Positions 6,258 to 62,865 of a stretch of 64,000 bases of DNA are shown here, in pieces. The notes under the pieces were generated by a model. That model worked only from the letters and a program-made list of their open reading frames with translations, was not told the origin of the DNA and made no database searches. The position numbers and the translations under genes were made by a program. Each line of letters opens with the position of its first letter. Within the stretch, counting starts at the first letter, position 1. The stretch is from Fistulifera solaris (taxonomy: Eukaryota > Bacillariophyta > Bacillariophyceae > Naviculales > Stauroneidaceae). The stretch covers positions 620,001 to 684,000 of the forward strand of contig AP026162.1 in assembly GCA_030295235.1 (NCBI GenBank), given 5' to 3'.

Positions 6258-6909
6258 TTAGAGGCTCAAACCAAGGAATGCGTCTTCGGCTTCTTGTAAG
6301 AGTCCTCCGGTAGACTCATCCGGTACGCGCAAGAGAAAGCCTTTGAGTTCATTCGCCGGCGCGCTCTGAGTGTACACAGGAAATCGCGTTGACTTGACGC
6401 GACTTGACAGTTTTATAGGGGTGAAATTGGCGAGGATTTTGTCGAAATTGCGACCGGGGGGAAGGACACCCAGGCACAAAGCTTGTCTCGCACAAAGACA
6501 GATCATGCATTTGCGTGAAAGGCATACCTTCATCTGACACAGTGGATGGGCACAACATATCAACAAAGTGTCCCCAAGGAGAAGGGGAATTCGGTTGAGA
6601 TCCTGGTTGATATTCCGTGTTGTATCTCCTTGGGGCGAGCTTGATTGAATCATCGCTCTCATTGAAGGAGGGACTTGAAGCGAGTTCGGAAAGCTTCATG
6701 CTAGAACTCCGCCGCCTCAATCGATTCACAGAACTATTCTGACCATCTATTGTCGGTGAGCTCGGTTCACTCGACACTTGTCGAATATCCTCATCTGATA
6801 CCATACGTGCTGCGGCGTCACGCGTGAGTAAATCAGCGGGGAAATCGAGCCAACACTGAGACAGGTCTTGTTGGCGTTGGTGGCGGCGCTTTAGGCAGAG
6901 TTTGGGCAT
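6258..6909 (-). CDS. unknown Ser/Pro-rich small protein (one frame break)
   Basis: I do not recognise this family. The product (about 216 residues after correction) is largely polar and Ser/Pro-rich, with basic patches (RLRRRSSSMKL) and Ser-Pro dipeptides that look like phosphorylation sites. An ordered core contains SPSPWGHFVDMLCP, and a C-terminal block includes RNFDKILANFTPIKL and LLQEAEDAFLGLSL. The two blocks lie in different frames that meet exactly in a run of six G on the + strand (6456-6461); five restores one frame reading CPSPGRNFDKIL. No signal peptide or membrane segment is seen. Both halves look coding, which supports a real gene. Confidence 0.6.
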
Positions 6910-7435
6910 TGCGCTTGTGATGTATATTTGTTATTTATCTTTATGGGGTATTGAAAGCTCTCTTCACCGAGAAGATGTGTCCTCTTTTATTGCCTTTCCT
7001 GTGCCTTGCTTTTGATGTCAAGATTCAAGATGTGTTCAACAATGGTGTGATGCGACGTGATTGCGCAGAACACCCACGTCAACAAAATTCACCAATGGAA
7101 CGAACTGTGTCAAGAAAAGGAACAGTCGTGTCTTAAGTCATCTGGGAGTTCTATGATGAAGAAATGATCCGTTGCCTCATCGTGCTTTGACAGTGCTCGA
7201 CAATCTCCCCGGTAAGAGTTTATTAGCGGATGACCATTTTCTGAGTTCACTAATCTAAAATGTACCACAATATCAGAAACGCGACAATTTTGTGAGGCAT
7301 TGAGTACCGTTTTACAGTACGTGAGCAGAAACGTTATTGACAGCGACTTTATTCTGAATCATCATCCAGATTCTTACCAGATTTGGGAGCCAAGATCCAA
7401 GATGTCAAGCGTTTTACTTGAGACAAGCAGGACGC

Positions 7436-7458
7436 ACGACGACGACGACGACGACGAC
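7436..7458. repeat. ACG trinucleotide microsatellite (about 7.7 units)
   Basis: Seven perfect ACG units plus AC, readable as poly-Asp on one strand. It lies in noncoding sequence. Confidence 0.9.
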
Positions 7459-7994
7459 ATGACATCAAGAATCCAGAATTCCTTTGGTCTCGATTCTTCT
7501 TGATGTCGACATGGCATTTGGCCGACGACAAGGCCGATAGCTGAAGTACAACTCACCCTACTACGCTTCCCATACTATGATTCAAAAATGCATGACGCTT
7601 CGAGATTCGGGCTAAATGTAAATACTGTAATGCAGAAACGGGAGACAGACGACAGACGAAGTTTTATCCGTGACTGATGGTATTCGTGAATCTTGAGTGG
7701 GAGAAGGCTCACAACTCACAACCATTTACAGAGCATCTGTTGCTGGGCGCTGGTCCCATTGCTAGATCCTAATCAAATAATGATATTGTGTTCTACATAC
7801 TGTTTGAACGTAGTTTACACCATAATTTTTATCGGCAAGATATTGTGACTGAGAATGGGTCAAGCGGGGAAAAGGGTCCTTGTTTCATTCAAAAAGTAAT
7901 TGACTCCATAACTAAGCTTTATTTTCTATTTAGTCTAAAGTAGTTACAATCACCCAAAACTAGACTATGTGAAGCGTGAACTTGTAATAATAAA

Positions 7995-29215: not shown

Positions 29216-32200
29216 TCAGTGTTCGTTAAAAAGCTGAATATATTCAGGACGGTGCGCTTGGGCTGTTTGGGTTTGCCGAATAGCGTCAACATCTCCCTCG
29301 GATTTGCTTTTGCGCGACGACGAGGGATCGAATTCTATCCGTATTGGGGGCGTTCGAGGTGCAGTATTCTTCGATGTAGTGACCGGCGGTGAAGTTTCTG
29401 GTGGACAAGATCGCTTCTTCGACGACGCAAATTTAGTCTCCGTGGCATTTGTTGACTGGTCCTCGGGCTTGTAATGTTGCATCATGGCGCGCATTTGCAT
29501 TTCGTGAGCGCGCTGCTGCTGACCGAACATAGGTGTGACTGGAGGTACACCCATTGTGGAATAACCGATATGACCCATCACCGATGAAGTCATGTAAGCC
29601 GGGTGCATATATCCACGGTGAGACATAGTTCTTTGTGGCATTTGGTGACCATGAACCGCCCCAGCTGGCACTTTGCTGCTTCGAATGTTGGCGGGGGAGG
29701 CAGCAGGGCCCTGCTGCGGGGCACGCTGTCCTTGCCAAACTTCATGAGCAACTCGTACTGCATACTCGGCGCCCTTAGAATCCTTCATTTTTCTCCTCTT
29801 GTCGATCAGCGTCTGAGACCCAGCCAGGTTTTGACAATCCACGCATTTACAGCTCGGTCCGCAAAATTGCCCGGCAACAAAACACTTTGACAAAGAAACA
29901 AACAAAAATGAGAGGTGACAGGATAGCAACAAGAAAAGGTGCGAAAATACTTACATCGCAATACTTTTTGAGGCAAAATGACCGCTTGCATCTGCAGCCG
30001 CTCGTACTTTGTTGAAAGGCTGTGGGGTTCTTGGCGCGAGCACTCTGAATCGCTTTCTCTCTTAATTCATCAAACTGAGGAAGGTTGTTGCAGTCCACGC
30101 ATTTGCATCCGTCACAGTACACTTTCGCGGAAAAGCAGAAGCAATAAAGCTTGAGACATTTCGAGTTTTTACAGTTACAGGACCTCTTCCCTGAATCATT
30201 TTCTTTCGTTGCGCTGTCTTCGCTAGCCGGAACGCTCTTCTGGGACGTTTTGACCGTACTCGGTGGGATTAGTTTCGGTACTTCTGCCGGAGTTGAAGAA
30301 GATAGGGCGGTCTGAGTTTTGGGTGTGGAGACGGGTTGTGTATTCTGAAACACATGAGGTTGCGGTGCGTATCTGTGGGCTTGGAGATGGGGTTGCGCGT
30401 ACATGTGTGGCGGATAAGCAGTTCTATAGGCCTGTGCTGAATGGTATGCTGCGCTTGAGGCTCGCATCATGTTATTGATCCCTTCGAAGGACTGCTGTGT
30501 ACTTGCATACTTCGTTCCGACTTGGCCCAGTTCAAGACGCATCCCGTTCCGGGGAACAGATGGCATCTGTCGATTCAATGTGCCATCGTTCCACAATTTC
30601 GTTGGCTTAACTTCACTCGAAGGTAGAACAGGAGATGCTTGCAGAGAAGTCGTAGCGCCGATTCGAGAAGCACTAGACATGGCGCTTTTCGAGGCTGAGA
30701 CTTTGGTAGCGGAAACTTTCGTAGCCTTTCGGACAGGTGACCTGGTCACTCCCTGCAGCCCTCCAGAAGGTGGTACGGTGATGAAGTCATTCAGAAAGCC
30801 TTTGAAGGAAGAGTCATTTTTCGAAGATCTTTGTGGTAACGGAGGAGCATCGATTTCGTCAGAGCTCGATCGCGTCAAGGAGATCTTTGGATGGTGTTCG
30901 TCGCCCGAAGGTTCAAAATAGACAAGCGATGGACCGACAGGTGAGAAAGCATCCGCCAACTGTGGATCAGGCGTTTCCACTATCCCAAAACTGGATGATA
31001 AACCCAAATGCGGTGAAGCACGAAGAGGAGATCTATTAAACCCTTTTCCAGGAGGCGAACGAAAAAGATTTGAGGTAGATTTGTTGCTCGGTGTCATGGC
31101 CATATTGACCCCGCCCAAACGTGTCAAAGGAGAGGTTCGCGCAGACGTGGCAAACAAATCGTCGACAGGCGGTGGAGAGCGCCAAACTGGTTCATGCTCA
31201 TAAAAAATGTTGTAGTGACCTTGTGGATGGGGTCGTCCATGAAAGTGTCCGGGTGTCGCGTGCGCAGTCGACGTGCCTTTCTGGTGCCACTCTCGATCTT
31301 GACCGTAAGGAGTTGAATAATCGGAAAAGTGCATGTATTGGTAATGCGAGAGCGGCGGGGAGCCGTGAGGCGAAGCAAATAGAGACGAGGGCCGATGATC
31401 ACGGTAACCTGAAGGCGATCCTCTTGGCGGTGAATCGCTTTCACCGAACGAACCAAGAGGGCCTTCCCAGATCTCAGTGGATTGAAGGGGGTCGTGGTGG
31501 CTGCCAGTGGTGTCCATATCGTTCGAAAGGGGCGCTGAAGCTGAAGCCTGTGTTGTCGAACATTATGAATAAAAGGGTGGAAAAAGCACGCGACAAGATT
31601 CGCGCCATTTTGTTGATAATAGCATTTGCAGTCGTGAATACGTCACAATTAGCAAAAACCGTTGCAATCGGTAATCGTGATACCCGTTGAATGGCAATAA
31701 ATTCCGTATGGACGAGTTTTTGACCGACCATAGTAATCATGTCAATGTATTAAACAGTATCGTGCGTAGCAAAAATACATAATGAAATAATAACAATGAC
31801 AACGGTGATAATCATCAACAAGGCAATCGTGCAACGAGAAAAGGAGGGAGGAAATGCGAATTCGAAACAAGGCAAGTGAGAAGAAGTTGATAAAAATACG
31901 ATCAATAACAGCTTGCGAAAAGTTCATCCGATTTAGATGTAAATCATTGTGAGAACGTACCTTTGGAGATTTCCGGGGCATTTTGGAGCGATGAATAGAA
32001 GATACATTACTTCGAGCTGGCGTTGCATCTTGATCACGGCGCGATGAGCCATGATCCTCTCCTTTGCGTGACTGGACTTGGGCATCGGCTGGCAACGTCG
32101 CTTTCCTAACAATACTCTTTGTTTGTGAAGATTTTGGAACTTGGCTGGATGGAGGAAGAAAGTCGCTGTGTGTACTCGTGGCTTCCGATTTTATTGACGA

Positions 32201-34175: not shown

Positions 34176-37100
34176 ATGTCGAGAGACGGCTATCCCATGG
34201 GCGGCCCCAATCGGCGACGACAAACGATGAAATCGGGTGGTTTGGGAACGTTCATGGACGATCCTCGATCGCGCAGTCGGGGACGATCGAAATCAAAGGA
34301 CGCCGATTTGTCGATCATGAGCGGCGTGTCTGGCGTAGACAGGATTTACGATACTATACCGGATAAGTATCTTTACAACTCCAAAAATATAGAGCCAACC
34401 TTGTACTTTTGCCGCGGCTGCTGGAAAACAACGCAGAAGCTAGAAGGGATCCTACAGCTGTCGCAGGGAAGAAGAAAGCGTATCATCTTACGCTCAGAAA
34501 CTTGATCAAAGCGGCTGAGGAAGATGTCCGTCTTCACCGGGCACGGGTGCAAGCAGCTCAGGTCAAAGACGTTCGGTTGCTTCGAAACTATCAACTAGAA
34601 ACAGATCCAGAGTATAAAGAGCGCACAGATAGGTTGAAAGAACGCCAGGCTCTCATCGACGAGCTGAATGATCAAGCCCATGCTATTCTGGAAGGACTAC
34701 ATGACAACCAAGATGGCCAGGGGTTGACGCAGGCGGAACGAGCGCAGGTGCATCTAGCACGTTGGCAACGCGCACTGGAGCTCTACGTACACACGCAACA
34801 CGAAGGAATGGATTGGCAATCCATTTTCGAATATTTGCTGGGAGGTATTTCCGAAGATCAAGATATTAGCCAAGTGTTACAAGAGGCATCGCAGCTATGC
34901 TCGGCAGTTGTTGATTCGACGACACAAGCATTGAAGGACGCAGAGGCATATGTTGCCGATCTTGAGTCTCCTTACCTTATTCGGCTGGAAGCGCATTCTT
35001 TGTATGCAAATGAATGTATGCGACAAGTAGGCGAAATCGAAGACCAATTCAAAACGTCAGGACGCACTGCCCTGCAGATCGGACATCAGCTGGAGCATGC
35101 TGAACTAAAGCGCAATCAGTGCGAGGCCGCTTCGATGTTGATTCGTCGCTGGTGGATGATGGAGAGTCTTGCTGAAACCGAGAAGAACAGTGGAAAGCCA
35201 ATTGATGTAGAAGCCGAAATTCGCGGAATCATCTCTCCGGGGGCCTGTAAAATGGATCCTTTGTTTACGAGATCGGAAAACTCGCTGGATGCCGCGAAGG
35301 CATTGAAGCAGCTCCGGGCCGTTGTTCGTTCAAGAGGAAATGCAGCGGCGACGGGAAGTGCAACGACGGCAATGACTGCGGACAAGTCGTCGTCTCGTCG
35401 GTTCGCGATTACAGCGAATTTGATTACCAGAACGAGCGACGCGGTCGAAGGTCGCCTATTGAATGCGTTTTCCGAAGTCTACGGTGCTGGTGGAATCTAC
35501 GACTTTTCTTCAAAGCCCAGACCCGGTGCAATTGATTGGCGCGAGCTTCGAGCACTCGCTCAAGCTTTGCTTTTGTTTGATTCCGGACGGAATCTACACA
35601 AGCGCTATGTCGACATGGTGGTCGGTTCGCGATTCCCTGAGCTGTTTTCTCCTCAGATGGATGACGGGGATGAAGATGCTATGTATTTTAGGGAGGCATC
35701 AGACGCGGATGCCACAAGAAGTAAGCTCACAAATCTGTTTCAGAGGGTTGGTGAAGTTTGCACGGCCGAATTTGAGTTGATTGCCCACGTTTTTGGAGCC
35801 GATGAAAATCGAACTGATCTGCTGGACGGGAATGAGGAAATGCCGCTCGTTGTAGCGCGGGCACTTCTTCAGCGCGTAGTGAGTGATCCTTCCCATGGTC
35901 TACAAGCTCGTATCAACGCCTTGTTGGCCAGCATTGACCGTCAAGGCGATTTGGAAGCTGCTGCAAAGAAGCTTGATACATTCGTCGTGGTCCATGAAAA
36001 AGCAGCAGGGCTCTTTAGCCTTCTGATAGGTGCTGCAGAAGCAATGGCATTTCGTGAGGAAACATCTGGCACTTCCAAAAGTTCGTCGAAAGCAAATCAA
36101 GGGAATGCGGTGGAATCTCTTAAAGGCTTTTTAAGATCACAAGAGCTTGCGATCACAAATGCCCATAGACAGGCCTACGTCAATTTGGAGCTGCGCTTAA
36201 TGCATCACGATTGTTGCAATATTCTGGATCACGCCGGTTGTGCCATGGTAAAGAATGCCCCATTGCGCCCCGATCCTGCTTTGGCGGAAAAAGGAATATT
36301 GGAAGAGTTCCGCGCCCCTGTGTTGCCGCTACACAAGGAGTCTCTTAAGCGTATTGGGTTCACAGGAATTCTTGCTGGTCCCCTCAAGCAATCTTTAATG
36401 ATTCAAACTCTTGTTCGTGGAACAGATTCGCTTGTGCGAGCTAGACTCATGTTCGGAGCTAATAAACGTAGTGGAGAAGCAACTTCACGAGTAATTCTGA
36501 GAATTTACTCTCAGATGTGCTCTTTCTTTGGTGAAGCTTTTCTTTTCCCATTGTTGAGACATTAGGAGACATCTTACCTGTAAGCGCCCCTTCTCAGCCA
36601 CCTCAGTTACCTTTTGACGAGGAACAAGAGCCGCCGGATCTTGGTGTCCCAGCTGCTTTCTGGGTGTGTCTAGAGCATGTCAGCTCTGTTGCGAAGGCAT
36701 TTGATCGAGAGCTGTGGGCCGAAGGTCGTGAAGACAGTCAGCGAGTTTGGGAAACGTTAGAAGAATGCGGGGACAGCAACTCAATGGCTATTGCACGAGA
36801 AGAACGCGTTCTGTTTTACACGAAACTTGAAAAACGAGGCGAGGCGGCCATTCTAAAGGCGTTGAATACATTGAGCGCGCATATGCAATGGATTCTTGTA
36901 ACCGGGGGCGAATCCATGTTGGCAACGGGTGGTACACGCATACTGAGCTCCCTGACTGGACAATCAGGTGGGCCATATGCGATTCCTGCCAACACAATTG
37001 CTGAAAACAGCAACAGTCCAGCTGTCAAATCTCTACTTTACTGTTTGCGGCGTCAGCTTCCGTCAATTCAGGCAGCACTTACTCAAGAAAGCCTGACTCG

Positions 37101-37539
37101 ATTCTGGACGGCTCTTTCCATGCGCATGTATGATATTTTTGTTTCGCGTTTGTTACAATATTATTACATTACAACTGCAGGTGCTGTTATACTCTTGGAA
37201 GATATCAAGTCGATGACAAACGTTGCGCAGTTAGTTGGAACAAAGCATGACCACTGGTTCAAATTGATTGAACTCGTTGCTCTATACCTGCCGTCTCCGG
37301 GTGGAATTACTTCTATGTTGACCGGCCCCGAAGGAGACCCTGGAAAGGGTTTGTTTGCGAAAGTCGGTCGGGACCAAGCTTTGGTATTTCTTAGCCGACG
37401 ACAAGATTATCGCTACAAGGCAGCGGCGGGAATGAAAAAGAGTTCGTGGGTTACGGACATGCTGACGAGTTTAAATGTGACCGATCCGACCGATGGAGTA
37501 GTCAACATGAGTCTTTTCGCAGCTAGCAGGATGGGTTAA
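34176..37539 (+). CDS. SEC10: exocyst complex component Sec10 (two frame breaks)
   Basis: Sec10/EXOC5 is a subunit of the exocyst, which tethers secretory vesicles to the plasma membrane. The match is by pattern to the plant SEC10 C-terminus: the block PSIQAALTQESLTRFWTALS, then LLQYYYITTAGAVILLEDIK, then QALVFLSRRQDYRYKAA corresponds to the conserved final helical repeats. The middle is helical throughout, consistent with a CATCHR fold; the N-terminus (MSRDGYPMGGPNRRRQ) is basic and disordered. No introns. Breaks occur in runs 34383-34387 (five A, six expected) and 36547-36549 (three C, four expected). Corrected length is about 1,121 residues, longer than the ~700-830 typical of the family. 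Identity is probable rather than certain. Confidence 0.72.
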
Positions 37540-39224
37540 TCTGCGCAACTGTTCGCTGGCCAGGCTCTGCCTCCTTACGGGTTGATTCGGTAAACAAGTA
37601 AAGCGGAGTACTCTGTATTTTTGTGCTGAATTTATGTTATTGATGTGCACCACATCTGTTGTGTTTAGCCAAGGGACAAGGTCGTTGCCCCACCTTCTCG
37701 TCTTGCATTATTAGGAAGCAAGTTCAAATACAGCTAATGATGCTAGAATATACATGGTTCATTTTTTGAATGTTATGCTCCTCTTCGCAATGCCTCTTAA
37801 AATCTTTCCAGTCCCAGCAATCGTTGTTTTAGTGCGCTTCACTTTCTTGTCCTTAGGCATGAATAAAATAGCGTGTAAAATAGCAGTCGATGTAATTATA
37901 TTTCTCGTTGGAAAATGTCGGATGAAACGAATCTCACTGTGATTGTCGTGCAAACGGATGATTTGCTGAAATGAGGTCAACGCTTGAGCAACAACCTCTA
38001 GAAAATAGATTGTGTCACTTCGTTGGTCGGGTCTTTTTTGGCATTACATCGATTGGCAAGGATACTCCATGATCCACTCCGGCTCCTCATAAACAATCGC
38101 AACACACATGGGACTTAATGGCAAATGGATTGATGTAATAAGGATAATACTTCGTGCAGGCCCATAACACAAGGTCCACACTCCCCCAATCCACCGCGTC
38201 ACTCGTATCGAGCCGGACTGCGTCAATAACGTTCCAAATACGATCAATCTTTGTGGTTCAGTGTGCGCTGATGCGACGGGTCGTGAGCAGCTCCATCGAG
38301 ATCTTTGAATGTCTTTTTTGGAGTCAACGAGTAATTGCAGTGCTGTGAACATATTTTTGTGTGTTAGGTAACTCGTCCATCAATGTTCTCAATCGAAATT
38401 GCAGAACATGATATGCTTCGGTGTCTCTGATGTTGTTGTTGTTTCGACGCTAGCACCAACACATGGCTATTTTGTCGTTCTGCATTTCACTCTATCATTA
38501 TTTGCTCGGTTCTCCTTGAGTGGTAAACACTTTTTAGCAGTCAACCAAGCCGCTAGTATGCAGGAAACAACTGCGCCCCCGATGGATATTTCTCGCTACG
38601 GCTTGATAGCCCTTTCACTGTATGGAAAATGACATTTTCTTTCGTGCTATTAAACTTCATGAGGATACATCTCGCCGAAACCCTTCTCAAAAATGAAGGG
38701 TTACACCCTTACTGAAACGAATTTTCACTCGCATCCTTCCTTGACGAGTCTGCACTAGCATGAATGTAATGACGGCAGGAAAAATTGAGAAGGAAGTCAA
38801 GTATCTGCTTCAAAAGGTCACACAATTCTGTGCTATCCCCTTGCATTTTTGGCCGAAAAGCACGTTTTGAAAACTATGCATTGCTGAAGTAGGTGACAAC
38901 TAAGTGTACTACAAACAGTAGTAGCGAGATCGGAGCGGTACACGGGTTTTGGTCTATGTCGCAGTGTGCTTAAAAATGTCGCAGAGGACGCACGGACAGA
39001 CTGGACCCTCTTTTAGACTCGTGACCCACAGTAAGGAAGGGATTACTGTGACGTATACTGTAAACCTGGAAGTACACGGGACACACCTTTTTGACTCTGC
39101 CATCGTCTGCATCATCAGAGCATCAGAGCATTGCAAACGAAGCCCTGATGAAAGCCATTAACTTACGAATACGGAGTATTTTTAGCAGTAACTACAACAT
39201 CGCTAAAGCAAAGCACTATCGGCA
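37540..39224. other. intergenic; one degenerate coding-like stretch
   Basis: 1.7 kb. A minus-strand stretch at about 38035-38470 looks coding in shifting frames (separate entry). The remainder shows no frame, repeat or RNA signature I can support. Confidence 0.4.
38035..38470 (-). pseudogene. possible decayed gene, family unknown
   Basis: Successive protein-like segments appear in different minus frames in a consistent order: GASVETTTTSETPKHIMFCN, LRTLMDELPNTQKYVHSTAI, TPKKTFKDLDGAAHDPSHQR, DRIWNVIDAVRLDTSDAVDW, VDLVLWACTKYYPYYINPFA and VAIVYEEPEWIMEYPCQSM. Some shifts lie in short runs like elsewhere in the window, but at least one (near 38335) does not, and an in-frame stop lies just upstream. 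That favours decay over sequencing error. No family could be recognised. Confidence 0.3.
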
Positions 39225-40364
39225 ATGAATGAAGGCAAGAAGCGAAAGGCTTTTCTCGAGCTTATCGCAAATGCCAGCAAGCGACCTCGAGTTGCTCCTA
39301 TTTCGTCGAGCGGTGGACAGCGCAACTCTGTTCCGACCGGCGCCACCGATAACGGAGGAGTGGCAAATGAATCATTGAGAAAGACTTCTGTTCCACCGAA
39401 AAAGGGTGACTTGGAAAAAGGTTGCGGTGCATTATCCAATGATTTAAGCGCAAGTTCTTGTCCACGAGAAGTCGACTCGCGCGAATGGGTCTGTTTAATG
39501 TGCACGCTTCACAATTCCGGTAATCGCAAGCGATGCCAAGCTTGCGGATCTCGTGAGCCGATTTTGAATGATGCTCCACCAGTTAAGGCACTCCGTGATC
39601 CGTTACCTCGGATGGTATATTCTACGCCTGCTGTGAACAATAGGCAACAAAAAGACTCTTCAATCGTTATGAAACTTGTTAAGAAGTTGGATACACCGAA
39701 AGAAAAGACGGTGAAGAAACCAAAGACGTCGTTTCAGAGCTCGTCGGCTATTAAGAAAGTCGATCACAAAAGTCGCGCTTTAACATCCTCTGCGGATAAT
39801 GAGATTGCTCCGTCCAGAAACCGAGATGGAAACAACGAAAGGAGTCCTTCAGCACTTACGGGTCTGAAAGCTACCGCACTCACGAACAACGATTCATCTA
39901 AGAATGCAATTTCTGTTAGTGTTACCAGGGATGCACGATTGGCACCAGCGCAAATTCCTCGCGACCAAGAGACTCCGGTATCGTCGCATTGCAATCACGA
40001 ACAGATGCAACAAATGCTCGTCTCGATTGTGGATAAAGTGCATTCTCTGAGCAAGCTTATTCAGGCTCAAACGGATGAGATTCAGAGTCTCCGTAAACAA
40101 AATGAAGAACTGTTGATGATGCAGAAACAGACTCTTCACGAAGCACAGGAGATGCGGACCTCTTTGACAAGTTTCACGCTTGGTCATGCTACTGAGCGAT
40201 CTCACGCAGAACTTGATGCAGCAATCGTCACTGATTTTCCACAAACGGGTGTTTTGCAAGAAGCAAAGCAAGGTGGAAACACCATGATGGTGACAGGCAT
40301 CGTTGGGTGTTGTGTCTCCCTGATTGCGGCTCTCGTATATTCGAACTACAAGCCGTTATCTTAA
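39225..40364 (+). CDS. RanBP2-type zinc-finger protein with C-terminal membrane anchor
   Basis: 379-residue intact frame. A basic N-terminus (GKKRKAFLELIANASKRPR) precedes one RanBP2-type zinc finger at about residues 88-107 (WVCLMCTLHNSGNRKRCQAC: W-x-C-x2-C-x3-N-x6-C-x2-C), followed by a YSTP motif. The middle is disordered. A coiled coil (about 270-320, SKLIQAQTDEIQSLRKQNEE) precedes a hydrophobic C-terminal segment (VTGIVGCCVSLIAALVYSNY, about 355-374) that would make it tail-anchored. RanBP2 fingers bind RNA or ubiquitin. It is a tandem paralogue of the gene at 42010, sharing N-terminus, finger, YSTP and coiled coil, but lacks that gene's Sae2/CtIP domain. Confidence 0.78.
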   Translation: MNEGKKRKAFLELIANASKRPRVAPISSSGGQRNSVPTGATDNGGVANESLRKTSVPPKKGDLEKGCGALSNDLSASSCPREVDSREWVCLMCTLHNSGNRKRCQACGSREPILNDAPPVKALRDPLPRMVYSTPAVNNRQQKDSSIVMKLVKKLDTPKEKTVKKPKTSFQSSSAIKKVDHKSRALTSSADNEIAPSRNRDGNNERSPSALTGLKATALTNNDSSKNAISVSVTRDARLAPAQIPRDQETPVSSHCNHEQMQQMLVSIVDKVHSLSKLIQAQTDEIQSLRKQNEELLMMQKQTLHEAQEMRTSLTSFTLGHATERSHAELDAAIVTDFPQTGVLQEAKQGGNTMMVTGIVGCCVSLIAALVYSNYKPLS

Positions 40365-42009
40365 AAAAGCTTAGCGTCTTAGTTAATTGATGCTTTATTT
40401 GCAATGAAAGTTGGCCGGAATTACTGCCTTGCTTGTTTGAACATTCATGCGCTCTAGTATTAGAAGCAGCCGTTCCACGCTTGAAACAATAGACAATAGA
40501 TACAGCTGGTGTCCGATCGTCAGAGCACCATGTACCCTCATACGAAAATCTACGTGTAGTACATTTTCTACGTCCCATTTCTCCGTAGGAGTAAATTGAA
40601 AGTAAAGAATCTAAGAAAGAATAATCATGAACTCAATTTCAATTACATTTTATTCCTTCTGTTGACAATTTTACACATGTAGGAATATAATCTACGGTTA
40701 GCTGGTTCGATTTCGTGTTTTCTTGACCTTGAAATGAGATTATCCTAGATTTTCGCCTCAGTCACTAGTCAGTCATGAGTCATGTTAACTATGTTATGCA
40801 GGCGACGATTCCCACTTGTATAGGTTTGTTTGACTAAAATACATCATTGTTCATAGTTATATTTAATAGTTTACTCAGTCTGAAGCAGAACTCTATCACC
40901 AGTAAGGAAACACGATGGAAATATTGACAAATTAGTATATAAAATTATTAGTTATGCCAGTTCCTCGTCAAATTCTCTATCTGATGGCTGGTAATCGCTC
41001 CACTCATTTGATGTCTCATGCTGCTTTCTCATCAAAGATTATTTGCGCTTTGTATTCACCACTGCCCTAACGAAACACCCCTCAAAATTCATGACACAGC
41101 GGAAGTCTTTAACTTCTTTACTATCTTTTCGAGGTCTTTTGCGTGATTGCCATCGCCCCAAGTCCTCTCTTCATAAGAGCTTGCCGAAGTTATAATGAAC
41201 CGCGCGCTTGATTTCTTTATTTGGTCATAATACCTTGATTTGATTACGGTAAACTTCCGGAAGACCAAAATGAGGCATTTAATGAGGGACTTCGAATAGG
41301 ATAAGTCGGACGAAATTGGCACGTCTAGAGTCCCTCTTGAACGTAATTGCCGAAAATGGGCTGTATTTGATAAGAAACGGAAAGAAAATTTCGTCACAGA
41401 TCAACGTATTCATGATAATCGTCCAATTCAACTTGACCAACAAGTGAGTGCCTTGTTCTTGCGATGTTTTTGAAGTCCGTCATGATCTGATCTCGTGGAT
41501 CAAGTTATACCGTTCGACGCGAAATTAAAAGTTACACAATTCAAGTTTTTCGATCCACGAGGTGAGATGTTTAGAACGAGTTATCAGTGATCGAATGGTA
41601 TGATCGGCATCGTCAAAACAACACGAAATTTGTCGCGATAAAAAAGAGTTTGGAGGAGTTTTTGGACCGGTACTCAAATCATATTTTTTCCGTTGTGGTA
41701 GGCTTATACGAGGGCTACATGGAGTTGAGACGATCGGACACCAGCTGTATCAGCAAGGACAAAAAATAGTTTTGAGTCACGGATATTGATTCCCTCGATC
41801 GCGCCAGAAACTTGCGTAGAGATTTGTACTGAATGTACTGCACTGATCTGGTCGGCGGTCGGCGGCAAATGTCGGATTTCATATTCCACCTCGCTCTTTT
41901 TCTTTTTCCCTTCGTCCTGGTTCGACTAGTCTACTATGCGATAAAACACGTTGTGAAGTAAACCATTGACAGAGAATCGAACAGAATTAAACAATCTACT
42001 ACCATCGAG
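40365..42009. other. intergenic between tandem paralogues, nothing supported
   Basis: 1.6 kb. Frames at 41089-41397 (minus) and 41587-41769 (plus) have no family resemblance. A 10-bp inverted repeat CTCGTGGATC / GATCCACGAG sits at 41492-41501 and 41552-41561. No remnant of a Sae2/CtIP domain from the first paralogue is seen. Confidence 0.45.
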
Positions 42010-43877
42010 ATGACATCTACAAGCAGTGACGGCAAGAAGCGAAAGCGCTTTCTCCAGCATATCGTTAACAAGCGACCTCGACCAAATCGTGTCTCGTCCA
42101 GTGGTGTCAAAGAAGCAGCTCCAAGCGCCACCGAAGACGAAGATATTGTCTTACAAGCAACATCGCAGACACTGTCTTTTGAAAAGAAACCTGATTTAGA
42201 AAGTCCCCGTACCTCCACGAGTGATCCCTGCACACATGTTTGTGCGGAAAATAAAGAGAATGCAACGATCAAGCCAAGGGGCTGGAATTGCGGTAGCTGC
42301 ACTCTTCTGAATCCCGAGAACCGTAAACGATGTACAGCCTGTGGGTCTCGTAGACCGATTGCGGATCCGTGTGCAATCTCTGATCCACACAATGCGGAGT
42401 ATTCTACACCTGGAAAGGTACATCCGATGCAAATACCTGCTGACACCTCAGTTGATAATATGCGTTCGGAAGAGTTGAAGACACCCACAATAGAGAAGGC
42501 CGACGATGTATCGACGCTAAATGAAAACAATACGTCACGCAGAACTGCTCGACAAGTGATCTGCGATCCGCCATCTAAGATGACTGCTGGTAGTAACGAA
42601 CGTTCTGCGCAAAGGAAACGCAGTAAGAGACCCGCCCTGCAATCGGTATGCCTACGATTATCATCCCCAGCAATTGAAGAAAACACTTCTTCCAGTCAAG
42701 TGGAGTGCGCAAATGATAACGAGAACGCCCGGCTGGTACAGCATGACCACGAAACTTTGAGGAATGAACAGCAACAACTTACTTTGGCGAAAGTTCTGAA
42801 TGAACTGAAGAGCATGAACGAGCTCATTCGTATTCAGAAAGACGAAATTGGAGATTTGACGAAACTTATCCGTGACCAAAGCGAAGAAATTCGGATTTTA
42901 AGAGAGCAGAATGTAGACATGTTGTTGACGCAAGACCAGATGAAATCGTCGTTGTTCATTTTGGAAACGAGGAGCAATGCCAGGCAGCCTAACGTAGATC
43001 CGAAAGAAGCGCCAGTTCAACAGGACGAGCCATCGAGCGTCACGCCAGAGGAAAGATACGCAGATGTCGTTTCGAAAGATTGCGAGGCGACGCCACGCCG
43101 ACAAGAACATTCTCCTGTACAAAAGTGTACTCCGCCTACCGGTATTCGCACTCTTGCCGTTGAGCCTGTATTGAAATTGGTGGATCCAGTTAACCTCCTT
43201 GAGGACGACAGTGCTGAACAACTCGAGAGACGAACCGAGCATGCAGCCAAAGACAGTCAGAAACTTCCTTCATCGCCTCCTTCGCCAGCCGCGTCAACAC
43301 AAACAATCGATCCGGATGCTAGTTCACAGATGGCTGCTTCGAAGGAATCATCTGTTTCTAAACGTTCCTTACCTGATCGTTTGCTGAAGAACCGAACAAA
43401 TCAGGCATTACCCAATCAAGTGTCGAAAGCGTGGGTGAATAATAAACATGCCCGTCAGTTTATAAGCGAAATGGAGAAAGATATTCCACGAAAGGCATCA
43501 GCGTCCTGGATGACGACGCGTCCAAAGCTCACTTCGACGGCTCCCTTTTGTAGCGCCACCAACCCTGGACAGGATACCCTTTTGAAGAAAGCCCACAGCC
43601 TAAGTATGCTTACAAAGAAACGGTCCGCTGTCGTAAAGATCGGCAAGCGTTGCCCTGTCATGATTGCGATGAGTGCCGATACTGGTACCTGACGCTAAAG
43701 AATACGGGCCATGAGTTTAGTCAAGATCCATTGTCGTTCAGTCGCCATCGCTCGCGATTTCAGCCGCACGAATCCCCCGTCGATTTCTGGGAAATGTCGT
43801 TTGTTGACGAGCGTAAAGCTCGACAAGCCGAGGAAGCAGAGCGCAAGGCTCGAGAAGCAGAGGAAACTGAGAAATAG
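42010..43877 (+). CDS. RanBP2 zinc finger - coiled coil - Sae2/CtIP (Ctp1) C-terminal domain protein (one frame break)
   Basis: Probable diatom CtIP/Sae2/COM1 homologue, the cofactor that activates MRE11-RAD50-NBS1 to resect DNA double-strand-break ends. The N-terminus (GKKRKRFLQHIVNKRPRPNR) and RanBP2 finger (WNCGSCTLLNPENRKRCTAC, about residues 92-111) match the upstream paralogue. A coiled coil spans about 253-325 (MNELIRIQKDEIGDLTKLIR). The C-terminus carries the Sae2/CtIP hallmark: PKYAYKETVRCRKDRQALP, then CHDCDEC, then RHRSRFQ with the RHR motif, and SPVDFWEMSF. It is in frame only if the CCC at 43577-43579 (or the adjacent T run) is one longer; as written the frame ends at 43692 in nonsense. 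Corrected length is about 622 residues. A RanBP2 finger is not part of the animal, plant or yeast proteins as I know them. Confidence 0.8.
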
Positions 43878-43905: not shown

Positions 43906-44478
43906 TTATATTTTCTTATCATTTTGTTCCGGTGAGACTACTTCCTGTCGCGTAGCAATTTCAAAATAGGAGTGGGCACCTACTTGTTTCGTTTTGGGCT
44001 TCAGATACGATACCCAAACTTGTTCGGCTTGTTGTTCCTCGCTTGGCGATGGTTTGGATGATGCTTGCCGCACCGGTGTTTCCGTGACGCCCCGCGGAGC
44101 ATCGTAAATATCTGCATCGGTGAGCGAGTTCATTTCCGGGCATGAGAATTCCGAAATTTGATGAATCATATGCATCATGTTCCCAAGATCCTGCCGTAGC
44201 TGATGCTGTTCTTGAGCGTCAATTTCGTCCAAATCAATCAGCGCACGCTTGGCCAGAATCTCGATTTCTGCTTGTGACATTGGTTCGTGTTTTTGATCTA
44301 GCCGAAGGTCAGCAATGGACCACGTCGGGTCGGGAAAGCAATCGGTGATTGAAGGTTTGCCGGTGCCGTTTCGTGTCGACGAAAACATGTTAGAGGGCTG
44401 GTTGCGCGCCCGTATACCGGCTACGCATTGCAACGTTGCTGTATGGCTATTGCGCAGGACTAACTGGGAAAGTTTCAT
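43906..44478 (-). CDS. GatC-like subunit of organellar Glu-tRNA(Gln) amidotransferase
   Basis: GatC stabilises the GatCAB complex that converts Glu-tRNA(Gln) to Gln-tRNA(Gln) in plastids or mitochondria. The 190-residue frame has a basic, Ser/Thr-rich leader (about 1-50) suited to organelle import. A helical core follows: MSQAEIEILAKRALIDLDEI then QLRQDLGNMMHMIHQISEF, matching the GatC pattern (LAxLARLxLxEEE...L..IL..V..L). The tail is longer than in bacterial GatC (~95 residues). It is convergent with the CtIP-like gene, 28 bp apart. The family is short and degenerate, so the call is moderate. Confidence 0.55.
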   Translation of the reverse strand: MKLSQLVLRNSHTATLQCVAGIRARNQPSNMFSSTRNGTGKPSITDCFPDPTWSIADLRLDQKHEPMSQAEIEILAKRALIDLDEIDAQEQHQLRQDLGNMMHMIHQISEFSCPEMNSLTDADIYDAPRGVTETPVRQASSKPSPSEEQQAEQVWVSYLKPKTKQVGAHSYFEIATRQEVVSPEQNDKKI

Positions 44479-45000
44479 GACAATTGCTTGGCCTTCAGAT
44501 CATAGAAAATGTAAGGATGTTGATGTTTATTGTGAGTTCATAATTATTTTTGTCACATCATTGAAAAACGCGTGCAAGGAAAATCCACGCAGAACGTTCA
44601 CTGTACGTGGTTTATGTACCAGCCGGTCGAGTCGGGCCAAACCTTTTGCTTTTATTTAGTCACGAATCTCTAATGAGGGTACAGTCTGTCCGTGCACTCT
44701 CTGCGACTTTTTTCAAACACACTACGACACCAGCCAAATTGTGAGTACCACTCCAAAACCACGACTACTTCTTGATGATAGACAAAATAGTAATCTACTA
44801 TACGTGCTATAGTCGCTAAACCGTGTTCCAGTCGCAAAATGCAAGGCCTTGTGCAAGGCGATAGTAAAGGAAAAAAGGAACGAATTAATCCTTGGGAACG
44901 AAAGCAAACAACACAAAACGCACGATGTGATCTTGTGTTTGAGTATGTCCAATTGCAAACAACAACAATACGTTCTACCACGCGACATACCGAAACTAGA
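44479..45000. promoter_or_regulatory. bidirectional promoter region
   Basis: 522 bp between the GatC-like start (minus) and the LRR-like start (plus). An in-frame extension of the LRR frame back to 44839 has lysine/glutamine-rich text unlike the protein and is probably 5' UTR. No other feature seen. Confidence 0.4.
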
Positions 45001-49390: not shown

Positions 49391-51126
49391 TCAAACGTCG
49401 TTCGCAGCTCTCAGCAGGTCAGGCTTGGCTCGGAGCACTGCAAAAAGCGTTGTGCGGGCCCCTTCCTCTCGTCGGAGAATTCGGCTGGATGGCACGTGAT
49501 GAGAGCCGAGTTCATTGTCACCAGTGCTGTGGCGCTCGTTTGCAAGCAGAGCTAGCACATGCGGATAAAGAGCGGGCGCAATGATCTTTTCGCTATGAAG
49601 AGCTGGTGGATGGGCTTTCATCAAAGTGCGAAGACCATCGTCCCAGGTTCTTACCCCCGCCTTCAGTGCCAGCACCAGCGGAAGCCTTCCATTCTGCCCG
49701 TGAGGTGTGAATGCTCCTTCTGGAAATCGCTCTAGTAGAAGCTTGATAACTTTGTCAAAAGGATTCGTTGTCTGTGAAACGGTTGCTGACGAAAAGAAGC
49801 TCATCGCTTCGGAGAGGACGCTCAAGTCATCAGCATTTGCATCTGCTGGGACCGCCATGGCCGCGGCTGCTGCCATGAAGCTAGGATGCGTTTCGTTGAG
49901 ACGAGAAAGAAATGACGATGCAGTGGCTGCTATGTGAATGGGGAGGTTTCCTTCCTCATCCATCTCGCGGACTTGATGCGGATGAAGAGATAAGGCAAGA
50001 CGGATAATTTCTGGTGGGCATCCGTAGCCAGTCAGCCCCACAGATGCATGAACAATACGAAATTGTCGACGCCCGTGCTTGGAGTTGCTACTTTTCTCTT
50101 CTTCGCTGTCTTCTACTGAAGGGAAAGAAGCTTGAATTGACTTCCCAAACAAGCTGGGCTTCGGGCTGGTTGCCGCAATACATTCCGTCGCCCAAGACGC
50201 TGCCTCTTTGCGACGGCTGCTTCGCCCGGCGATCGACAGCCCTGCTCGTGTAAGCTGCGAAAATACTTGCTTTCTCGCTTCAACCTCTCTTCCGCTAACC
50301 GGGCTATGATCCATCCGGCTCGCTTCCATAGATCGCCAAGATTGACATGAACTGTCATGGCTGCTGCCAGAGCAGCCTTCTCGGGTATATCTTGGTGTTG
50401 ACGATGGAGGCTGTCGACTCTTGCAATCACCACTTTGACACGCTCCCTGTATCGCCGGAAGAGAAGTGCGAGCGGTGTCTGACCAGTGGCATCTTTCATG
50501 CCCAAGACATTCACTTCAACTTGTGGCCCTGTGCCGCTTGATAAGTACGTCTCGTCTTCTTCGATGTCATCGAAATCTTCTTCCAAAGCACATTGATTCT
50601 CCGATCCCATCCTGAGGTTACCTTCTTTGATCGATTCCTCGAAAAGCAAGCGAAAGGCATCAATTTCCAGGCCTCGAAAAGACATGCATGCATAATGTAT
50701 AGGGGCTCTCCCCATTCTGGAGAGGTCAGCCGTCGGAGAGACACTCTTTCCTTCCGAGTGGCTGTGCTGCTTGGCACATTCTATCAAGGCCCTCACCGAT
50801 TGAGCCGAGCAGCGATGGCTTGCGGCAACGTGCAATGGCGTCGCACCTTCGTGGTTCGAGATTCGACTGGCGGCGCGTAACGCCAAGATGACAGCCGGAG
50901 GAGGATCCAATCGACATGCTACATGCAGCGGAGTATTTCCAGTTACCTCGTCTTGATAAAGAATTTCGGAGGGATGCTTACGAGCACGACGAATAACCTC
51001 TTCCCAAGACTGGTTTTGGATCAGGCAGATGAGAGTCGATGGATGGAAGTGACGCATGCGACGCAGACGTCGCTGAGCGAAAGAATAAATAGGATTTCCG
51101 CGGAGATCAGTAAGCAAGTGCCTCAT
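49391..51126 (-). CDS. ankyrin-repeat protein (one frame break)
   Basis: Protein-interaction scaffold of unknown target, about 578 residues after correction. Ankyrin repeats are plain near the N-terminus (TGNTPLHVACRLDPPPAVIL, GATPLHVAASHRCSAQSVRA, GRAPIHYACMSF), with further ones at TGQTPLALLFRR, in the C-terminal half (EEGNLPIHIAATASSFLSRL) and at NGRLPLVLALKAG. The halves are in different frames that meet in a run of four A on the + strand (50260-50263); five gives KYFSQLTRAG and a continuous protein. No signal or membrane segment. The layout, with repeats interrupted by long acidic or Ala-rich inserts, is one I associate with diatom ankyrin proteins (memory, unchecked). Confidence 0.78.
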
Positions 51127-58996: not shown

Positions 58997-60982
58997 TTAC
59001 TTGTACGTCAAATTTGCCATCAAATGAGGATCGTTTGCAGCCAGTTTGGCTATCCTTAGCATTTCTTGATCATGGTACACACTCTTACTGGGCGACGCTA
59101 AGGGTTTGCCGCTTGCTCCAGTCGAATCAGGACTGCCGATGAGCCGCCGAGCGCCAATCTCAGCTTCTAGTTTTGCTTTTGCCTTTGCCAGATAGCTTTT
59201 TGATGCCGAATTATCAGGGTCATACTTCAGTGCTGTGGTATAGGCCGAAACCGCCCCAGCGTAATCTTTCATGAAGAAGCGACTAAGGCCAAGTCGTGCG
59301 TGCGCTTTGCCGTAGGTGGGGTTTAGTGCTAAAGACTGCTGGGAGTCCTTTTCTGCCTCTGGATACCGCTCCATGTAACATAAAGAAGCCGCACGGTTTG
59401 AATAATAAACATGTGAATTAGAGCCATTTGGACAGCATTGAATGGCTTTGCTGTAAGCATCGAGAGCTTCAGCGTACTCTCTTTTCGACATGCAGCTGTT
59501 GCCAATAACTTTCCACTTTTCTGCTTCGCGTTCGCCAGATGCGTTCCCGTTGAGGTGTTTCTGATTTGATGTTTTATCCCATTCACTCACAACGGAAAAG
59601 CTTGAGCTTAAAGTCGTAGGATTATTGTCTACGGGTTCCGCCAAACGCTTAGCAGCCTTTTCAAGATAATTCTTGCTGCTTTTACTGTCGGGTTCGTATT
59701 TCAGTGCCACAGTGTAAGCTTCCATAGCTTGTCTATAATTCCCAAGCAAGAAGTGGGCCAGCCCCAAGCGGGCGTGGGCTTTGCCGTAGTCAGGGCGGAG
59801 TGACAAGCTGCGCTCCGAATCTAAAATGGCTTCATTGAACCTCTTCATGCTAACCATTGCTGCGGCTCGGTTGCTGAAATAAACATGAGAATGAGGTCCT
59901 GAAGGGGATATTTTCAAAGCCTGAGTGTAGCAATTTGCTGCCTCCTGAAACTCTTTTTCTTGCATATGCGTATTTCCCATAGATTTGAACCTTTCTGCTT
60001 CCTGAATGTCCGTTGGGTTTTGGACCGACGACGAAAGAGGCCCGTAATCTGATTCATCGACGTTCTTGGAAAGCATTCGACTTTCAGAACCTAGTCTCTG
60101 TGACGCACTACCACTATCAAGACGTCCACTTATCGCTTGCTGAATACGCTGAGTTCTACGCTGCATCAGTTGATCAGCAGCAGAATGAACAGCCAAGTCT
60201 CCCATCGTATCGTTTTCTTCTTTCGCGGCGATTTTATTACGAAACTTTGCAACAATTTTACGATAGCGATCTTCATAGATTCGTTTGTGATAGCTTTGCA
60301 AATCCTCTCCTTCTAACTGCTCAACACTCGAGGAAGATGTCGGGTCGAAGAAGCCTCTCGCTTGTACTGCCTGCAGAAATTGATCAAAGAGAGGAGACTG
60401 AATCATGTCTTTTTCTGCTTCAAGCCGCGTTCGAGCCCCCAAGCTAGCCAGGCCAGCAGTTGCAATTTCTCCCAAAGTAAGAGCGCCTTTCAAAGCAGGC
60501 CCACTCGCCAAGCCATTCAATGGGTAAAATCTGTAAACATTGCTGGGATGCGAGTCGTCGTATTCGTACCAATAATCGTCCTCCTCTTTCTGTTGACCCA
60601 ATTCACCGTTTCGACTGTTACCTTCATTTCTAACATAAAGAATCTCACTTTCCATCGCAGAGAGACTAGGAAGGTTTTCCTTCAAAGATTCGGCGGGTAG
60701 TGTAGAATGCGTTCGAGCTTTGTCGAAATATGGATCACTATCTCTGCCCAAGTGATTTGGAGAGACAAAAGCACGCCCGAGTGCCCAACACGCAACTGTC
60801 AGGTAATCGGCATCCAGGCCCTCCACGGAACGAAGAGCATGTGGCGGGTAAACTCTTCGCAGATCTCTCAAATAATCGAGACAAAGCAACACGAGTTCGT
60901 TTTCATTCGGAAGACTGGTATATTGTCCAGGATCACCGGGATCTTCCTCCAAAGCGGGATTCTTACCAGTGATGTCTCCCAT
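58997..60982 (-). CDS. protein with two TPR blocks, SGT/STI1-like co-chaperone fold
   Basis: 661-residue intact frame. Two similar three-TPR blocks, at about residues 330-445 (ERFKSMGNTHMQEKEFQEAA ... AHARLGLAHFLLGNYRQAME) and 485-605 (EKWKVIGNSCMSKREYAEAL ... AHARLGLSRFFMKDYAGAVS), resemble the TPR domains of SGT, STI1/HOP and related Hsp70/Hsp90 co-chaperones, including the GN-x-Y/F and SNRAA signatures. The N-terminal half is not recognised, but its first 60 residues (ELVLLCLDYLRDLRRVYPPH) look like a small helical domain. A short polar C-terminus ends ANDPHLMANLTYK. Likely cytosolic chaperone adaptor (inference). TACCAGGTA lies 62 bp upstream of the start. Confidence 0.82.
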   Translation of the reverse strand: MGDITGKNPALEEDPGDPGQYTSLPNENELVLLCLDYLRDLRRVYPPHALRSVEGLDADYLTVACWALGRAFVSPNHLGRDSDPYFDKARTHSTLPAESLKENLPSLSAMESEILYVRNEGNSRNGELGQQKEEDDYWYEYDDSHPSNVYRFYPLNGLASGPALKGALTLGEIATAGLASLGARTRLEAEKDMIQSPLFDQFLQAVQARGFFDPTSSSSVEQLEGEDLQSYHKRIYEDRYRKIVAKFRNKIAAKEENDTMGDLAVHSAADQLMQRRTQRIQQAISGRLDSGSASQRLGSESRMLSKNVDESDYGPLSSSVQNPTDIQEAERFKSMGNTHMQEKEFQEAANCYTQALKISPSGPHSHVYFSNRAAAMVSMKRFNEAILDSERSLSLRPDYGKAHARLGLAHFLLGNYRQAMEAYTVALKYEPDSKSSKNYLEKAAKRLAEPVDNNPTTLSSSFSVVSEWDKTSNQKHLNGNASGEREAEKWKVIGNSCMSKREYAEALDAYSKAIQCCPNGSNSHVYYSNRAASLCYMERYPEAEKDSQQSLALNPTYGKAHARLGLSRFFMKDYAGAVSAYTTALKYDPDNSASKSYLAKAKAKLEAEIGARRLIGSPDSTGASGKPLASPSKSVYHDQEMLRIAKLAANDPHLMANLTYK

Positions 60983-61638: not shown

Positions 61639-62865
61639 ATGCAGATCGATTCCCATGCTGGCATTGACCATCAAGAAGAACCTTTTCTTCGAGAGGTATC
61701 AGCGCAGTCGACTTCTCCTAAACGCGCCGGCTTGGCGATGTCTCTTCCCACCGGTTTATCTGCCTTGATACAAGCAGCAACTTCCCAGCTTGGAATTCCT
61801 GCTGATGAACCGAAAACTGCAGTCACACACTCATCAAATCGAGTCTTCGCCATACCAAAGTCCGATGATACCAGTGAAGAGGGAGTCGATGGGCTTCGAA
61901 ATAAACCCAGTCAATCTAGAACACCAGTAATGATCCCAGAGCCAGATCCCAGGAAGCAGTCTTTTCCGGAACTGTTAATGACTCTTGCAATGGATCCTTT
62001 GAACATTGATACAATCGCTTTTCTTCCAGACGGGAAATTTTTTGCTATACGAAGTCAAACTTTCTCTCAGGAGCTTATGACAGAACATTTTGTGATAGAG
62101 ACGTTTGCTGCATTCCTTGAGGTGCTAGAGGATTGGGGTTTCACAAGAGTGAAAAAAGATGAACAGTGTCTCGGAATTGAAGTGTTTCATCATCCTTTGT
62201 TTTTGAAAGGTGATTGGATAAGATGTTCTCAGATTGAACACGGAAAATCACCCACCGAAGTAAGAATCTCAGCGCTTCCTGAGAGAGCTCGCTTAGAGTT
62301 TTCGTATTCACCCCCAGATGATAGCGAGAAATCCATCGGAGTTCACTCAAAACGAAGGCTTTCACCAGATTGTGCTTTAAACCGCGAAGCTGATACGTCT
62401 CTATCATGGCAGAAGAAGAGGGCTGATAATGTCACGAGCTATCTTCAAAACAACAGTAGCCGGCGGAGCAGCATGACTTCAGTGGCATCCGATTTACATC
62501 CTGATGCGTCCTTCACTGGCGTGAACCGCACTGACGATCTCAGAAGCATTGCGCTCTCGATAACAGCAGATAAACTTCGAATCAGATGCGGTGATTTACA
62601 ATCAAAGACATCCCAGCCGTTGATAGACTGCGCAGTCCAATCTGCAACTCATAATATTGTCACTGACGCTATTGAAACATTGCTCAGGGACGAGACTCAT
62701 ACACAAGAGACCTATCGGAGGCACGAACGCGAGCTTTCGAAGTCATCACTTCCAGGCTTAGTTCCGATCAGTAAACAGCTATTTTCGCATGTCAGTGAAG
62801 ACTTAGGCAACCATAGCACGGACGTTAAACCATCAGAGGGAGAAGACGAGCGTCAAAGTGATTGA
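61639..62865 (+). CDS. heat-shock-factor (HSF) type DNA-binding protein, diatom style
   Basis: Transcription factor of the HSF family, which is greatly expanded in diatoms. The start at ATG 61639 gives about 408 residues. The HSF winged-helix domain spans about residues 110-205: FPELLMTLAMDPLNIDTIAF, then LPDGKFFAIRSQTFSQELMT, then FVIETFAAFLEVLEDWGFTR and IEVFHHPLFLKGDW. Typical HSF landmarks are present (FxxxL...I.W-like, DGxxFxI, FxSFxxxLxxxGF, YHxxF) but several aromatic positions differ (IAF for I-W, FAAFLEVL for FxSFVRQL), so DNA recognition may be altered. The rest is Ser-rich, without an obvious coiled coil. Confidence 0.75.
   Translation: MQIDSHAGIDHQEEPFLREVSAQSTSPKRAGLAMSLPTGLSALIQAATSQLGIPADEPKTAVTHSSNRVFAIPKSDDTSEEGVDGLRNKPSQSRTPVMIPEPDPRKQSFPELLMTLAMDPLNIDTIAFLPDGKFFAIRSQTFSQELMTEHFVIETFAAFLEVLEDWGFTRVKKDEQCLGIEVFHHPLFLKGDWIRCSQIEHGKSPTEVRISALPERARLEFSYSPPDDSEKSIGVHSKRRLSPDCALNREADTSLSWQKKRADNVTSYLQNNSSRRSSMTSVASDLHPDASFTGVNRTDDLRSIALSITADKLRIRCGDLQSKTSQPLIDCAVQSATHNIVTDAIETLLRDETHTQETYRRHERELSKSSLPGLVPISKQLFSHVSEDLGNHSTDVKPSEGEDERQSD

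Follow-up and report, generated by a model that had tools for sequence, protein, structure and literature searches.

Once CtIP/Sae2 has activated the initial cut, a DNA break is committed to recombination. At one locus of the diatom Fistulifera solaris, the C-terminal block of this family appeared to be joined to a zinc finger of the RanBP2 type, which raises the questions of whether the two domains belong to a single protein and what a finger on a resection factor would bind. We analyzed a window of 64,000 nucleotides (contig AP026162.1, positions 620,001 to 684,000), and all coordinates below are positions within it.

Results

One gene with a one-base frame break in the assembly

42010..43877, plus strand: finger-SAE2 protein gene, public 622-aa protein FisN_1Hh293 (P0001)
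43577..43583, plus strand: C/T run with a one-base frame break, from comparison with the sister copy and the public protein

The window gene is made up of two overlapping plus-strand frames, 42010-43692 and 43554-43877. Frame 1 is open from 41962 to 43692 with an ATG at 42010, and frame 3, open over 43554-43877, contains CHDCDEC, SRHRSRF and PVDFWEMSF. Since they overlap at 43554-43692, a one-base frame change is required to join both, confirming for this assembly the break near 43577 reported in the first-pass annotation. That annotation had also supposed that the gene might have escaped automatic gene prediction, and here it was mistaken, because FisN_1Hh293 (622 aa) in the public annotation spans the break. 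This F. solaris protein was the closest match to the window gene, with 99% identity over 94% of the query. A search of the 51.7-Mb genome located a second copy, 88% identical, on contig C2; we take it for that of the other subgenome, in line with the record names FisN_1Hh293 and FisN_1Lh293.

Both P0001 and the C2 copy are in frame and unbroken across 43577-43583. Because they are continuous at this site, the break is not an intron and is most likely not biological, and an assembly slip near 43580 is the most likely cause. The C2 copy carries four one-base differences elsewhere, each within a single-base run, and none of them, compared by eye, is shared by the continuous public L protein (FisN_1Lh293, P0003), as expected of assembly slips. 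An intron at 43550-43572 (23 nt, GT...AG, of a length that fits the frame) was considered and rejected, because P0001 retains SATNPGQ, which such an intron would cut out, and because the frame of the C2 copy stays open at this place.

The public model P0003 is 489 aa long and starts at a Met corresponding to residue 140 of P0001, with the finger absent; the C2 DNA encodes the finger in frame upstream of that start. In UniRef the H copy is named after its RanBP2-type finger and the L copy after its Ctp1 C-terminus, so that each record is named for one half only and the fusion is easily overlooked.

The C-terminal block belongs to the CtIP/Sae2 family

43602..43814, plus strand: SAE2/CtIP C-terminal block with YKETVR, CHDCDEC, SRHRSRF and FWEMSF

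The Pfam SAE2 profile (PF08573, cut-off 19.8 bits) scored 26.1 bits on the C-terminal frame of the window and 20.2 bits on P0001. The CxxC, RHR and FWEMSF block that had been assigned to this family at first sight, with an HMM search proposed as the check, is thus borne out above the cut-off. The best stretch covers profile positions 83-105 of 110 only, and the score falls slightly under the cut-off in P0002 (18.3), P0004 (18.1) and P0005 (18.7). Three protein searches, two of which started from the C-terminal block, gave a total of 21 relatives (P0001-P0021); searches of this kind reach only relatives of similar length with several exact shared words. SAE2 was matched at E ≤ 0.01 in 20 of the 21.

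A CxxC pair in the C-terminal block is a feature of the CtIP/Sae2/Ctp1/Com1 family, and the DC..C pair was present in all 21 relatives. Read by eye, the C-termini contained RHR in 18 relatives (SRHRSRF in the window) and RHK in three (P0015-P0017). The family also has a CDK site next to the block; in P0001-P0009, again by eye, Ser-Pro lies just ahead of it in P0001-P0003, P0005 and P0009, Ser-Gln in P0006-P0008, and neither in P0004. The AlphaFold2 model gives the block mostly low confidence. For P0001, NCBIfam had nothing at E ≤ 0.01, and a whole-genome PF08573 search gave no match here nor in 14 control genomes, though frame-level Pfam shows the family to be present. On sequence grounds, we consider the assignment of the gene as a diatom CtIP/Sae2/Ctp1/Com1 orthologue to be sound.

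A RanBP2-type finger lies in frame with the block and recurs in relatives

42271..42369, plus strand: RanBP2/NZF-type zinc finger, residues 88-120 (core W92-C111, 42283-42342), by motif, profile and fold

The window finger, GWNCGSCTLLNPENRKRCTACGSRRP in frame 1, fits W-x-C-x2-C-x3-N-x6-C-x2-C exactly, a motif expected 4e-8 times per protein of the window protein's length (pooled composition of the 21 relatives). Two structure comparisons matched the finger to the RanBP2-type fold, in agreement with the family profile and with the original reading of such a finger in frame with the SAE2 block. The proposed search with the zf-RanBP HMM (PF00641) gave a divided answer, as the match was found at E 3.6e-4 and its 20.2 bits lie under the cut-off of 27. 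Among the relatives, P0004 passed with 29 bits, P0006 scored 10.3 bits and P0007 was unlisted at E ≤ 1, with matches at E ≤ 0.01 in 8 of the 21. We therefore base the finger assignment on the motif, the fold and a profile of 15 sequences, not on the Pfam gathering score.

The strict finger was found in 15 of the 21 proteins with an SAE2 C-terminal block, and two more (17 of 21) had near-matches, P0017 with one extra residue and P0019 with altered spacing. It was absent in P0010, P0020 and P0021, of which P0020 begins without a Met and may be a fragment; in P0003 its absence is due to the gene model. Since the finger is missing in three relatives, it is not needed everywhere. Among the named proteins, P0001 and P0003 are from Fistulifera solaris, and P0011, a bearer of the fusion, is from Amphora coffeaeformis, a diatom of another family than Fistulifera. 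Phaeodactylum and Thalassiosira were not among the named sources of the 21 matches, in a word-based search that is no proof of absence, and no non-diatom source could be recognized among the 21, most of which have no stated origin.

When all 21 were aligned, the invariant columns fell almost wholly in the C-terminal block. In a tree of the 21 C-terminal regions, the finger-less sequences require at least two changes, with only 5 of 18 inner branches well supported and several sequences very long. Its recurrence in these relatives marks the fusion as a conserved form of CtIP/Sae2, not an accident of one genome. A literature search on diatoms with Sae2 and CtIP found no paper, and neither did one on NEIL3 with an NZF and ubiquitin. 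By title or the start of the abstract, no such fusion appeared among the matches listed for CtIP/Sae2/Ctp1 with RanBP2 or zinc finger, a search on Sae2 with NZF revealed no Sae2-NZF protein, and the single match for Sae2 and Mre11 in stramenopiles concerns a rhizarian.

The finger resembles ubiquitin-binding NZF fingers

To place the finger among its subclasses, we compared a profile built from the 15 strict fingers with the PDB and considered the best 60 of 73 matches. Single-finger chains of the ubiquitin-type NZF class scored 26.4-33.5 bits among these. The part of PMC4386640 available to us describes the I44 patch of ubiquitin as contacted by a T-F motif together with a hydrophobic residue 10 positions later. 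In the 15 strict fingers, column 13 is Thr without exception, column 14 is Leu in 11, Tyr in 3 and Phe in 1, and column 25 is Ala in 7, Val in 5, and Leu, Ile or Met in 1 each. The ubiquitin-type pair and a hydrophobic residue about 10 positions on are thus present (T13; L/Y/F 14; A/V/L/I/M 25). The weakest point of this agreement is the window finger itself, which has Leu at position 14, not Phe or Tyr, and before the last Cys an Ala, a weaker residue than the Met found there in TRABID. By structure comparison, ubiquitin-, Ran- and RNA-type fingers could not be told apart.

From these comparisons, the finger appears closer to the ubiquitin-binding than to the RNA-binding subclass, which is the assignment we favour. 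The first-pass annotation had allowed for RNA or ubiquitin, and profile scores narrow this to a ubiquitin-like subclass, with the RNA class lowest. We think it fairly probable that the gene encodes a CtIP/Sae2 orthologue whose NZF finger binds ubiquitin and in this way gathers the protein at breaks or licenses it there.

It is unlikely that the finger of this orthologue serves only for docking or structure, with Ran-GDP, a repair partner, DNA or Mre11-Rad50 as its target and no role in binding ubiquitin or RNA. Single fingers of Nup153 and RanBP2 came second, at up to 24.3 bits among the best 60 of 73 PDB matches, and long chains with ubiquitin-type NZF fingers overlap this group (HOIL-1L 24.4, NPL4 22.7 and Vps36 22.0, of the same 60). 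Ran-binding fingers are also equal in fold match, and they would be consistent with Leu at position 14 and an Ala at 25. However, the Thr at column 13 of all 15 strict fingers is replaced by Leu, Ser or Cys in the RanBP2/Nup153 fingers among the PDB matches listed.

We regard as decidedly unlikely a finger that binds single-stranded RNA in the manner of ZRANB2, RBM5 or FUS, and so links resection to transcripts or R-loops. All three proteins were among the structural matches, RBM5 and ZRANB2 in both comparisons, and the finger has a basic tail, with Arg at column 29 in 14 of 15 and Arg or Lys at column 30 in 14 of 15. Against this, RNA-binding fingers scored lowest of the three classes, at 13.4-18.2 bits among the best 60 of 73 PDB matches (ZRANB2 18.2, RBM10 15.3, RBM5 13.4-13.8). 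RNA-binding fingers use an Asn-Val-Asn stretch and a following aromatic residue, where the diatom fingers have Thr-Leu/Tyr/Phe instead.

Strong purifying selection on both domains

We compared the H and L copies codon by codon. Over its 33 codons the finger showed 7 silent differences and none that changes an amino acid; of those in the 78 codons of the SAE2 block, 11 were silent and 1 changed an amino acid. By comparison, dN/dS in three linkers was 0.22, 0.43 and 0.55. For replacing sites, the difference from the three linkers had a p of 1.4e-4 for the finger and 1.2e-11 for finger plus SAE2 block, both from rounded counts with sites taken as independent. The two domains are therefore under strong purifying selection. 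Elsewhere in the protein, dN/dS was 0.35 in the coiled coil, 0.16 at residues 440-519 and 0.77 in the short basic start.

A real break, with finger and SAE2 block in two separate genes or a pseudogene and not in one protein from the window copy, would fit the broken frame near 43580 in this assembly but is very improbable, given that the frame runs on at that site in P0001 and in the sister copy on C2, that the four one-base differences of C2 elsewhere lie in single-base runs and, as would be expected of assembly slips, are not shared by P0003, that selection on both domains is strong, and that 15 of 21 relatives hold finger and block within one protein.

Other conserved parts of the protein

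42010..42096, plus strand: basic N-terminus, residues 1-29, KKRKRF...NKRPRPNRV
42724..42981, plus strand: long coiled-coil helix, residues 239-324, from the AlphaFold2 model
43294..43317, plus strand: conserved STQTIDPD motif, residues 429-436, with S-x-Q-T-x-D in 18 of 21 relatives
43432..43473, plus strand: W..N..AR.F..EM block at residues 475-488, conserved as a strict pattern by 18 of 21 relatives

Basic N-terminus, finger, coiled coil and C-terminal block occur in one gene in the order originally described. The basic N-terminus is likely a nuclear-import signal, from which we infer a nuclear role; the first 60 residues carry a net positive charge in 19 of 21 relatives, the exceptions being P0003, with its late start, and P0020, with no starting Met. 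The AlphaFold2 helix has pLDDT values of 89-96 at residues 251-320 and lower values at either end. It lies downstream of the finger; the oligomerisation domain of the family is N-terminal. STQTIDPD is a possible phosphorylation or docking site, and we take S-x-Q-T-x-D to be a candidate ATM/ATR-type or FHA-docking site. There are three copies of S-x-Q-T-x-D in P0008 and P0011 and two in P0018 and P0019. The AlphaFold2 model places a short helix (479-490) at the W..N..AR.F..EM block.

A tandem paralogue ends in a hydrophobic tail

39225..40364, plus strand: tandem paralogue P0022, 379 aa, with basic N-terminus, finger and coiled coil and no SAE2 block, by protein comparison
39477..39566, plus strand: paralogue finger, residues 85-114, REWVCLMCTLHNSGNRKRCQACGSREPI, PF00641 19.5 bits (cut-off 27)
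40281..40337, plus strand: hydrophobic segment resembling a tail anchor at the C-terminus of the paralogue, residues 353-371, by Kyte-Doolittle

P0022 is 30% identical to P0001 over 342 aligned positions (E 2e-23). In place of the SAE2 block it ends in TMMVTGIVGCCVSLIAALVYSNYKPLS. The mean Kyte-Doolittle value of this tail is 2.25 over 19 residues; among the 21 proteins with an SAE2 block, no stretch of that length exceeds 1.69. A copy with 72% identity is found on C2, so that both subgenomes have the paralogue. Between the two, 28 of 30 finger residues are identical with a dN/dS of 0.17, and two sister copies with so constrained a finger argue for a function. The hydrophobic tail is kept on C2 as well, with a dN/dS of 0.43 from few sites and 1.45 in the stretch just before it; the C2 paralogue has a one-base break ahead of the tail in this assembly, and its stop comes five residues before the C1 end. 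The paralogue is perhaps a membrane-tethered partner, a decoy, a tether, or a protein with no part in repair. On C2, the copies of both genes (L007, 3919-5060 and about 5574-7462) have frames broken by one-base differences; these appear to be errors of the assembly and would interfere with gene calling on it. Finger-like matches to the paralogue also occur in other frames, two on each of contigs C15 and C16 (L013-L015).

Ten frames were scanned with Pfam, which identified the following ordinary neighbours.

29847..31517, minus strand: tesmin/TSO1 CXC protein
36784..37539, plus strand: Sec10-like exocyst fragment
50113..51126, minus strand: ankyrin protein
58997..60982, minus strand: TPR protein
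61639..62865, plus strand: HSF-type DNA-binding protein

A convergent frame of 197 aa (43906-44499, minus strand) stops some 30 bases away from where the SAE2 gene ends. Its GatF match was sub-threshold only (15.7 bits, cut-off 33.4), and it is perhaps a GatC/GatF-like subunit. Inverted repeats were seen at 38972-39013 and 44672-44713 (42 nt, 86% complementary) and at 40499-40537 and 41713-41751 (39 nt, 87%); the outer pair flanks the two-gene block of paralogue and SAE2 gene.

Discussion

Reasoning from the family, the C-terminal block would activate the Mre11-Rad50 nuclease at DNA ends, the coiled coil would give an oligomer, as in known members, and the diatom protein would bind DNA. In the family, the C-terminal region binds DNA through an RNR/RHR motif, named as its C-terminal DNA-binding motif, and activates the Mre11 endonuclease, while the N-terminal domain forms tetramers (available text of PMC6315862). 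An NZF-type finger placed between basic N-terminus and coiled coil could bind ubiquitin carried by chromatin, by repair proteins or by proteins trapped at DNA ends, and this contact would concentrate or license CtIP at breaks. Both the binding and its part in recruitment are predictions.

As to partners, Mre11 DNA-binding-domain matches were found on contigs C9 and C10, and a search with the Nbs1 profile PF16508 carries no weight, as it matched in no control genome. Xrs2/Nbs1 and BRCA1 were not found in six diatom datasets, F. solaris possibly not among them, and Sae2, Com1 and CtIP go unmentioned in the main text of that study, as far as it was accessible (PMC4647503). In human cells and fission yeast, CtIP/Ctp1 docks on Nbs1 through phosphorylated sites (excerpts of PMC12453631 and PMC6315862). 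The contact with Nbs1 is critical in fission yeast, whereas in budding yeast that with the Xrs2 FHA domain is apparently unimportant for the initiation of resection (PMC6315862, same excerpt), so that loss of an Nbs1 contact need not demand a substitute.

A conserved ubiquitin-type finger on CtIP, where Nbs1 and BRCA1 are reportedly not found, would offer a single-protein test of direct ubiquitin licensing of resection. If the finger binds ubiquitin, diatom break processing may be steered directly by ubiquitin marks, with possible relevance to gene targeting in oil-producing diatoms. A more elaborate scheme, unlikely as a whole, would have the diatom resection activator read ubiquitin through its own NZF in place of an adaptor relay, and its membrane-tailed tandem sister form mixed oligomers with it, compete for the ubiquitin mark or hold it at the nuclear envelope or ER.

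The protein shares with CtIP/Sae2/Ctp1/Com1 the C-terminal CxxC, RHR and FWE motifs, an upstream coiled coil and a long disordered middle, and differs in its NZF-type finger ahead of the coiled coil, which has no counterpart in the available portions of two reviews of the family (PMC6315862, PMC12453631). ZRANB3 is likewise a genome-maintenance protein with an NZF that binds ubiquitin chains, but it has a helicase domain and works at replication forks and is not a resection activator. Its NZF is dispensable for recruitment to damage, so an NZF may bind ubiquitin chains without being what recruits the protein (PMC4239114, in the part accessible to us). With the NZF fingers of TRABID (NZF1), HOIP, HOIL-1L, NPL4, TAB2/3 and RYBP/YAF2, the diatom finger has in common the W, the four Cys, the Asn, the Thr with a hydrophobic residue, an aliphatic residue ahead of the last Cys, and the best single-finger profile scores among the best 60 of 73 matches. 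It differs from them in its Leu at 14 (11 of 15) and its Ala or Val at 25 (12 of 15), and in being attached to a resection factor, where its binding to ubiquitin is predicted.
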